From NCBI GenBank assembly GCA_937128055.1, contig CAKZMC010000124.1, forward strand, positions 1-32,575: a stretch of DNA of 32,575 nt. Reading direction: 5' to 3'. The notes beneath the pieces are model-generated. The model was not told the origin of the DNA. It ran no database searches and saw nothing but the letters and a program-made list of their open reading frames with translations. The stretch comes from an uncultured Actinomycetes bacterium. GTDB taxonomy: Bacteria > Actinomycetota > Geothermincolia > Geothermincolales > RBG-13-55-18. The translations under genes were made by a program, and so were the position numbers. Shown one piece after another: positions 4,130 through 25,311 of the stretch; position 1 is the stretch's first letter, and each line of letters opens with the position of its first letter.

Positions 4130-4225
<96 letters not shown>

Positions 4226-4570
4226 GCGTAACCCTATTATATTGATGCGGGACAACGCCTTCCAACACCGCACTCCGTGCCGGACCCCGCCGTGCCCGCC
4301 GCTCGCGGGCCGAACGCCTTACCCGCAACGCGAGGCGCCACGCGGCCTGAGCGAGAGCGGCTCCCGCGCCTCCATGGCTTGCGGCGCCGAGGGGGCGGCG
4401 ACCGCGGGACTCCAGAGCCGAGAACGGCCGCCGCCGTGTACCCTCGGCTCCCGCCCGTCGCCTTTCTGGTTGCAGGCCGCCGTGCTCCGCGCCTAAGATT
4501 TAACCGGGGGAGCACCGTAACCGCGCGAGAGCTCTTCCCCGCGGGCGAATATCTCCGAGGGGGGATCTTC
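4226..4570. other. GC-rich gap, no gene recognised
   Basis: The 345 bases between tRNA-Ser(CGA) and the methyltransferase are very GC-rich. The methyltransferase frame stays open upstream to 4277, but that part is arginine/proline-rich and looks non-coding. No RNA gene or clear promoter was seen. Confidence 0.5.
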
Positions 4571-5410
4571 ATGGCCGCCGATTCCGCCGACCACTACGAC
4601 CGGGTGACCGACGCCTGGAGGGAATTCATGGGGGAGAACCTCCATTTCGGCTACTTCGAGAGACCGGACACGGGCCTCGCGGAGGCCACCGACCTCCTTA
4701 TAGAGAAGATGCTCGCACTGTGCGACATCTCCGCGGAGAGCAGGGTGCTGGACGTGGGCTGCGGCGTGGGCGGGCCGGCCCTTTACCTGCACGAGAGATG
4801 CGGGTGCAGCGTCGAGGGCATATCCACCAGCGAGCGGGGCGTCCGCATCGCCAGCGAGAAGGCGCGGGAGAGGGGTTACGAGAAGGTGCGCTTCTCGGTG
4901 GCCGACGGCGTGGACAACGGGTTCCCCGACAGGGCCTTCGACGTGGTGTGGATCATGGAGTCCTCCCATCCCATCCAGGATAAGGCCGCGCTTTTCAGGG
5001 AATGTCACCGCGTCCTCAAGGAGGGTGTCGTACTGGTGCTCTGCGACCTTGTGCAGGCGGGAACCCTGCCTCTCCTCAAGGGGCTATGGCGCTTTTTGGC
5101 CAACCTACGGGGCTTTTTCTCCGGCATGGACGTCTGGGGTCCCGCGCAGATCCTCACCCTTGGCGCCCTCTGCGACCGCCTGATCGAGGCGGGCTTCGAA
5201 AGGGTGCGGCTGCTGGACATCACCGAAAAGGTGATCCCCACCCTGAAGCACTGGAGCGAGAACGCCCTGCGTTTCCTCGATGCGCGAGAGGGTGAAGCGG
5301 AAAGGGAATACGCCGACCGTTTCATCGTTGCTTGCCATAACCTGGAAAACGCCTTCCGGGAGGGGCTCATGGGTTACGGGATGCTGCGCGCCGAGAAACG
5401 GCCCGGATAA
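4571..5410 (+). CDS. Class I SAM-dependent methyltransferase (copy 1)
   Basis: A 279-residue methyltransferase of the small-molecule type (related to ubiE/tocopherol- and sarcosine-methyltransferase-like enzymes). SAM motif I is VLDVGCGVGGPA (59-70). The acidic loop is at about residue 83, where GISTSERG replaces the usual GxxxS, and motif II/III is about FDVVWIMES (residues 119-128). An N-terminal HYDRVTDAWREFMGENLHFGYF block caps the substrate site, as in enzymes that act on lipids or polyketides. The substrate is unknown. The ATG at 4571 follows GAGGGGGGA, and an in-frame upstream extension is rejected. It is a clear paralogue of 24084-24914: motif positions coincide to the residue. Both copies lie next to a serine tRNA. 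Confidence 0.88.
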   Translation: MAADSADHYDRVTDAWREFMGENLHFGYFERPDTGLAEATDLLIEKMLALCDISAESRVLDVGCGVGGPALYLHERCGCSVEGISTSERGVRIASEKARERGYEKVRFSVADGVDNGFPDRAFDVVWIMESSHPIQDKAALFRECHRVLKEGVVLVLCDLVQAGTLPLLKGLWRFLANLRGFFSGMDVWGPAQILTLGALCDRLIEAGFERVRLLDITEKVIPTLKHWSENALRFLDAREGEAEREYADRFIVACHNLENAFREGLMGYGMLRAEKRPG

Positions 5411-24083: not shown

Positions 24084-24914
24084 ATGCGCATCGATGCCAA
24101 GAGCCATTACGACCGCGTCACCGATGCCTGGAAGGAGTTCATGGGGGACAATTTCCACTTCGGCTACTTCCTCGCCGAGGACATGGAGCTTTCACGGGCA
24201 ACCGACGTGATGATAGAGAAGATGGCGGAGCTGTGCGAGATCGACGGGGACACCAGGGTGCTGGACGTGGGGTGCGGCATCGGCACGCCGGCCTTCTATC
24301 TCCACGAAAAATACGGCTGCCGCATAGACGGGATTTCCACCAGCGAACGGGGGATAACAATAGCCAGCGAAACCGCGGCAAAGAAAGGCTACGCGGAGGT
24401 GCGCTTCCGGGTGGCCGACGGGATGGACAACGGCTTCCCCGACCGGTCCTTCGACCTGGTCTGGATCATGGAGGCCGCGCACCTCATGCTGGATAAGAAG
24501 AAGCTCTTCCGGGAATGTTACCGGGTCTTGAAGGACGACGGGACCCTGGTCATGTGTGACCTGGTGCAGCGCATGCTGCTTTCGCTTCCCCGGGGCATCA
24601 TGTTCTTCTTCACCCACCTGAAGGAATATCTCCGGTTGCTGCGGGCATTCGGCCCGGGGCAGCTTCCCACCATGGGCAACTACGCTGACGCGATGATCCA
24701 CGCGGATTTCCGCGAGCTCACCATCGTGGATATAACGCCTAACGTCCTGCCTACCCTCACGTGGTGGCGCAAGAACGCCGTCCATGTCCGCGACGGCGGG
24801 GGCTGCGCCTTTCCCCGCGAAGACGTGGAGACCTTCATCGCGGCCTGCGAGATCCTGGATTCGTTCTTCCGCATGGGTCTCTTCGGCTACACCATCATCA
24901 GGGCGAAGAAATAG
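24084..24914 (+). CDS. Class I SAM-dependent methyltransferase (copy 2)
   Basis: A 276-residue paralogue of 4571-5410. The N-terminal HYDRVTDAWKEFMG block, motif I VLDVGCGIGTPA (59-70), the GISTSERG stretch (about 85-92) and FDLVWIMEAAH (about 129-139) sit at the same residue positions in both. The substrate-side C-terminal half differs more (a phenylalanine-rich MFFFTHLKEYLRLLRAF in place of the copy 1 segment), so the two may methylate different acceptors. The ATG at 24084 follows GGAAGGGGAGTG. It is followed by tRNA-Ser repeats. Small-molecule or lipid substrate likely; not assignable. Confidence 0.88.
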   Translation: MRIDAKSHYDRVTDAWKEFMGDNFHFGYFLAEDMELSRATDVMIEKMAELCEIDGDTRVLDVGCGIGTPAFYLHEKYGCRIDGISTSERGITIASETAAKKGYAEVRFRVADGMDNGFPDRSFDLVWIMEAAHLMLDKKKLFRECYRVLKDDGTLVMCDLVQRMLLSLPRGIMFFFTHLKEYLRLLRAFGPGQLPTMGNYADAMIHADFRELTIVDITPNVLPTLTWWRKNAVHVRDGGGCAFPREDVETFIAACEILDSFFRMGLFGYTIIRAKK

Positions 24915-24997: not shown

Positions 24998-25079
24998 TGG
25001 CGGAAGGGGAGGGATGCTTGCCCTCGAGGCGGCTTTCGCCACCCTACCTCGATTGCCCAGTCGGGCGAGGGTCCTTCCC
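24998..25079 (-). pseudogene. tRNA-Ser-like pseudogene, copy 1
   Basis: On the minus strand this reads as a degenerate serine tRNA of about 82 bases. The acceptor 3' strand, CCA, T-stem GAGGG/CCCTC and variable arm are intact, but the T-loop TTCGAAT has become CAAGCAT, the D-arm is scrambled and the anticodon loop is enlarged (GACTGGGCAATC). It is unlikely to work as an elongator tRNA. Confidence 0.7.
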
Positions 25080-25107
25080 GGCCTACCGGTATCTGGATGT
25101 GGTTTCC

Positions 25108-25189
25108 TGGCGGAAGGGGAGGGATGCTTGCCCTCGAGGCGGCTTTCGCCACCCTACCTCGATTGCCCAGTCGGGCGAGGGTCCTTCCC
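25108..25189 (-). pseudogene. tRNA-Ser-like pseudogene, copy 2
   Basis: Identical to the copy at 24998-25079, including the altered T-loop, so the changes came before the duplication. It lies 28 bases from the CCA end of the intact tRNA-Ser(GGA) and would be co-transcribed with it. Confidence 0.7.
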
Positions 25190-25217
25190 GGCCTACCGGT
25201 ATCTGGATGTGGTTTCC

Positions 25218-25311
25218 TGGCGGAAGGGGAGGGATTCGAACCCTCGAGGCGGCTTTCGCCACCCACACGATTTCCAGTCGTGCTCCTTAGGCCAGACTCG
25301 GACACCCTTCC
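25218..25311 (-). tRNA. tRNA-Ser (anticodon GGA)
   Basis: A 94-base class II tRNA on the minus strand: acceptor GGAAGGG/CCCTTCC, anticodon loop CTGGAAA giving GGA, a long variable arm (GGTGGCGAAAGCCGCC), T-loop GTTCGAATC and encoded CCA. It reads UCC and UCU. Confidence 0.95.

Follow-up and report, generated by a model that had tools for sequence, protein, structure and literature searches.

A family-restricted tandem repeat derived from the 3' end of tRNA-Ser(GGA) in uncultured actinobacteria

The E. coli tyrT repeats (rtT RNA, RF00391) are tandem repeats lying directly behind a tRNA gene, with the tRNA 3' end copied in each, and the gene cassettes of integrons carry attC sites, so that small genes stand beside repeated, structured recombination sites. 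A further RNA model, sX4 (RF02223), apparently includes a 3' end resembling that of tRNA-Ser, with further sequence after it. At the DNA level, tRNA genes are commonly integration targets (PMC4383910; PMC8371274): in the tRNA-targeting islands collected in Islander, a displaced 3' tRNA fragment lies downstream of the intact gene and in the same orientation, with crossover sites in the anticodon loop, in the T-loop or at the T/acceptor junction, and with 2 kb as the minimum island length used (PMC4383910). Such 3' fragments are usually taken as one-off scars of mobile elements. The sequence described here resembles both the island tRNA fragments and the tyrT repeats and fits the full definition of neither. 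Here the tRNA 3' fragment is a tandem repeat with a conserved core of its own, which persists across genera and changes in concert with its parent tRNA.

The window, by which is meant the whole stretch of DNA analysed, is 32,575 nt long and comes from an uncultured Actinomycetes bacterium (assembly GCA_937128055.1, contig CAKZMC010000124.1). Read along the minus strand, an intact tRNA-Ser(GGA) gene is followed without interruption by two units, each composed of a spacer, a core and a tRNA copy that extends from the variable arm to CCA (Table 1). The genome is a draft assembly of 210 contigs in which identical tandem copies can collapse, so the copy number in the window is not certain and two units are a minimum count. 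Two similar SAM-dependent methyltransferase genes (window 24084-24914 and 4277-5410) lie beside two separate tRNA-Ser genes of the window, one at each.

Table 1. Features of the tRNA-Ser(GGA) locus and of the tRNA-Ser(CGA) hot-spot loci (window positions unless a locus is named)
Feature	Position	Strand	Remarks
tRNA-Ser(GGA), parent gene, intact	25218..25311	-	ARAGORN; Rfam tRNA 51.4 bits
Unit 1, 110 nt, directly 3' of tRNA	25108..25217	-	Identical to unit 2; matched in relatives
Unit 1 spacer, 40 nt	25178..25217	-	Poorly conserved in relatives
Unit 1 core, 26 nt, CGCCCGACTGGGCAATCGAGGTAGGG	25152..25177	-	Kept between genera, family-restricted
Unit 1 tRNA-derived 3' half, 44 nt: variable arm, T-arm, acceptor 3' strand, CCA	25108..25151	-	
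Unit 1 T-loop CAAGCAT replacing TTCGAAT	25124..25130	-	
Unit 2, 110 nt	24998..25107	-	Identical to unit 1
Unit 2 core	25042..25067	-	
Unit 2 tRNA-derived 3' half	24998..25041	-	T-loop CAAGCAT at 25014-25020
tRNA-Ser(CGA) hot-spot loci	4134-4225 + 3' flank; L220, L221, L222, L223, L224, L225, L047		

As a first-pass annotation of this DNA had reported, the two units are identical at 110 of 110 bases. The period-110 identity spans 131 positions before fading into the real tRNA. As it also stated, each unit keeps the variable arm, the T-stem, the 3' strand of the acceptor and the CCA, and these are exact copies of the parent's; over the 47-nt 3' part, tRNA and unit differ at four positions, all of them inside the 7-nt T-loop (P ~2e-4 for four of four under random placement), and the changes leave the stem intact. 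Both units share CAAGCAT in place of TTCGAAT, for which the simplest reading remains the one first offered, that the change is older than the duplication. Elsewhere that description needs revision. The D-arm, said to be scrambled, is absent altogether, and one CCA is separated from the next variable arm by the spacer and the core. The core resembles an anticodon arm only in part, through its segments CGACTGG, AATC, and GGG; its AAGGTA segment and the additional GG where the loop would be are unlike one, yet are also conserved.

What is new with respect to the original observation is the presence of the repeat beyond the window genome, within the same family. A search of 39 related genomes gave second matches beside tRNA-Ser(GGA) in several members of this family; in the family genomes the 450 nt downstream of the tRNA were then read, along with further contigs, and units and remnants were counted by eye on aligned sequences. 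A recognisable unit stands at tRNA-Ser(GGA) in nine of the 15 genomes of the same GTDB family, representing five of its six genera (G000, G002, G005, G006, G008, G009, G010, G012, and G014). The unit is lost or degenerate in the other six, among them the only other genome of the window's genus: three retain degenerate remnants (G001, G011, G013) and three have no unit at this gene (G003, G004, G007), where losses are as likely as empty sites. That assembly or binning produced the duplicate, as the draft state of the genome and the identity of the copies might suggest, is most improbable, since nine independent assemblies have the unit at the same place and contig breaks argue for more copies rather than fewer. 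The contigs of G010, G012, and G014 end within a unit and the G002 array holds a run of N; with four assemblies breaking inside the array, at least some genomes probably have longer arrays than their assemblies show. The locus is a warning that metagenome-derived assemblies break or collapse at arrays of this kind.

The core is restricted to the family. Among 381 genomes of the phylum outside it, the core pattern gave one match (G363), which has no tRNA near it and is a chance match. A scan with a 16-mer was too unspecific to be of use, returning at least 120 stretches across many phyla. Similar DNA was not found in phages or plasmids, and spread on viral contigs was considered and rejected, the viral pattern matches being at chance. 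In the literature searched, no description of the repeat was found.

Conservation is unevenly distributed along the unit. In comparisons between genera, mean identity is 90% for the core (48% when shuffled), as against 50% for the spacer (44% shuffled) and 47% for the tRNA leader (35% shuffled). The 3' half follows the tRNA of its host: for each of the seven units compared, no other tRNA matches better than the host's own, and for the four whose hosts have a distinctive variable arm (G002, G006, G008, and G012), none matches as well. Since the 3' half tracks the variable arm of its host, concerted evolution by recombination or gene conversion is indicated. In the relatives' units the T-loop is TTCGAAT or a single change from it (TTCGCAT, TTCGAGT), and CAAGCAT therefore arose in the window's lineage; a donor for it elsewhere in the family was sought and rejected, with matches at chance level only.

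These patterns bear first on a neutral origin. A tRNA 3' end duplicated in part by accident, then multiplied and made uniform by unequal crossing-over and serving no function, would account for the tandem order, the concerted evolution with the parent tRNA, the truncated last copies and the loss in several genomes, and the T-loop, which in such a copy would be free of selection, has indeed changed in the window genome. We nevertheless consider this origin unlikely: a purely neutral satellite does not account for a core so well kept between genera, and only in part like an anticodon arm, next to a spacer that is near random and a tRNA leader that diverges. A neutral scar private to the window genome is likewise disfavoured by the orthologous units, with their conserved core, in five genera. 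The other readings are the two between which the first-pass annotation had left the matter, a remnant of an attachment site or a maintained tRNA-like RNA. The occurrence in five genera suggests that the repeat is not a random scar but a recombination site particular to the lineage, or possibly an RNA, and the units are copies of a vertically inherited, lineage-specific tandem repeat anchored on tRNA-Ser(GGA).

At the RNA level, the units could encode a maintained small RNA with a core hairpin, variable arm, T-arm, and CCA, and no D-arm. It would be made by read-through from the tRNA-Ser promoter and would serve some purpose other than translation, perhaps as a sponge or by drawing off seryl-tRNA synthetase or processing enzymes as a decoy. 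Seryl-tRNA synthetase reads the long variable arm and the acceptor end, and the variable-arm stem, T-arm stem and CCA are all kept; such an RNA would also explain a conserved core beside a variable spacer as well as an attachment site does. In the window there is no terminator-like site between the tRNA and the units; terminator-like hairpins were seen by eye at this position in G009 and G011, and count against the idea. Folded as a single strand, the window unit gives a three-arm structure, as would be expected anyway from a tRNA copy with G+C-rich stems and no D-arm.

Comparison with RNA models gave little encouragement. Covariance-model scoring, which had been proposed as a check, detected no tRNA in either unit (Rfam, E up to 10), nor did ARAGORN, only 25218-25311 being called; with no D-arm and the T-loop CAAGCAT, the units depart from the RF00005 cloverleaf and from the D-arm and T-loop invariants (TTC.A). 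No Rfam family reached threshold on the units, and rtT RNA (RF00391) had no match in the window up to E 10. The window units are like the tyrT repeats in being tandem behind a tRNA gene with a tRNA 3' end in each, but differ in the tRNA concerned, in unit length and in sequence. The sX4 model, with its tRNA-Ser-like 3' end and further sequence, matches the relatives' units weakly, but all scores are far under its gathering score of 70 bits (13.3-14.8 bits in the window, 31.9 bits at best, in G009) and derive from the tRNA 3' part. The 31.9-bit match lies over the G009 unit (L006 1469-1557, minus strand); sX4 calls close to tRNA genes may need care. Both units also match the HDV-like ribozyme model (RF00094) weakly, at window 25010-25085 and 25120-25195 (minus strand), a match that is most likely due to chance (20.2 bits against a gathering score of 50, E 1.2; no match in relatives).

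Three pairings within the unit were considered and rejected. The spacer sequence GGAAGG (25183-25188) could pair with CCTTCC of the unit and so form the acceptor of a tRNA-like fold (GGAAGG/CCUUCC), but it is not conserved in the relatives. For the core sequence GGUAGGG as a substitute acceptor strand, complementarity to CCCUUCC is not significant (P 0.087), and a core hairpin CCC-GACY-GGG has one compensatory change and pairs no better than shuffled sequences (98 of 500). Processing of an RNA some 80 bases long out of the tRNA-Ser transcript is supported neither by a tRNA model match nor by a conserved 5' acceptor strand. Together with the loss or degeneration of the unit in six family members, this leaves a maintained tRNA-like RNA rather unlikely; if it does exist, it would be another tRNA-linked repeat RNA.

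We tentatively favor, at somewhat short of even chances, an attachment-site-derived repeat kept by recombination over such an RNA. This is supported by the displaced tRNA 3' fragment downstream of an intact tRNA in the same orientation, which is the signature of a tRNA-targeting island. The repeat would descend from, and may still behave like, the attachment site of integrative DNA, the site being a 26-nt core, which could serve as a short recombination or recognition arm, followed by the displaced 3' fragment from variable arm to CCA. Recombination through the repeated tRNA 3' ends would maintain the number of copies and their agreement with the parent tRNA, and genes and single units could be gained here. 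A recombinase may act, or have acted, on the core and T-arm, in which case the T-loop change in the window genome would have altered the crossover or overlap region. By analogy, the T-arm would fit the usual form of a tyrosine-recombinase site, an inverted stem around a 7-bp overlap, as described for the anticodon arm (PMC8371274).

The likeness to an Islander attR is incomplete. Fragment and orientation agree, but there is no integrase in the interval and no island between the fragments, which are some 110 bp apart, far under the 2 kb minimum; the units are tandem and identical, contain a conserved non-tRNA core, and begin their tRNA identity at the variable arm rather than in the anticodon loop or T-loop. 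No tyrosine integrase (PF00589) was found on the window's contig, and the window genome encodes no more than two PF00589 proteins, whose size and presence in nearly all members make them look like XerC and XerD.

Signs of recombination are nonetheless present in the relatives. G008 has one unit at tRNA-Ser(CGA), placed precisely after the CCA and before the flank GACCATATTTGAACA; this flank resembles the insert-free ones that follow the same CCA immediately in the window, G004, and G010 (GATTATGTTTGAACA, GATTATGTTTGAGCA, and ACTTATGTTTGATCA). This is the sole clean comparison of a filled and an empty site, and homologous recombination alone could explain it. The final units of the G012 and G010 arrays end inside the T-loop, the two ends reading GGGTTC and GGGTTCGAA. 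The G002 array has truncated units interspersed with genes for RibD_C and Imm5-like proteins, and a DUF3795 gene comes next. As in attC cassettes, small genes here adjoin repeated units, but the family repeat is tRNA-derived and mostly without genes. That the tRNA 3' half, held identical to the host's tRNA by recombination, and the 26-nt arm form a family-specific, trans-mobilised recombination site, comparable to a cassette attachment site, with arrays gaining and losing small genes, is a more specific proposal and quite unlikely; were the repeat an active recombination site, this uncultured family of actinobacteria would have a further kind of cassette system, one derived from a tRNA.

A second serine tRNA is an integration hot spot in the family. 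Behind tRNA-Ser(CGA), members of the family have many 3' fragments that reach from the anticodon loop to the CCA and are bordered by recurring arms, TACCAGG..ATACCTGTAATCGGGCGA before and GATTATGTTTGARCAGG..TTTTAT after, and serine tRNA genes are therefore integration targets in the family lineage. Nearby are MNT/HEPN toxin-antitoxin pairs and metal-resistance genes (ArsR/ACR3-like or metal-ATPase), several of these neighbour-gene names being read from translations without a profile search; PF00589 had no match on the hot-spot contigs checked. The core of the GGA units is not common to the arms at these fragments. An unrelated repeat, two identical 112-nt tandem copies, lies near a duplicated tRNA-Ser(CGA) 3' end in G008 (L047 11767-11990).
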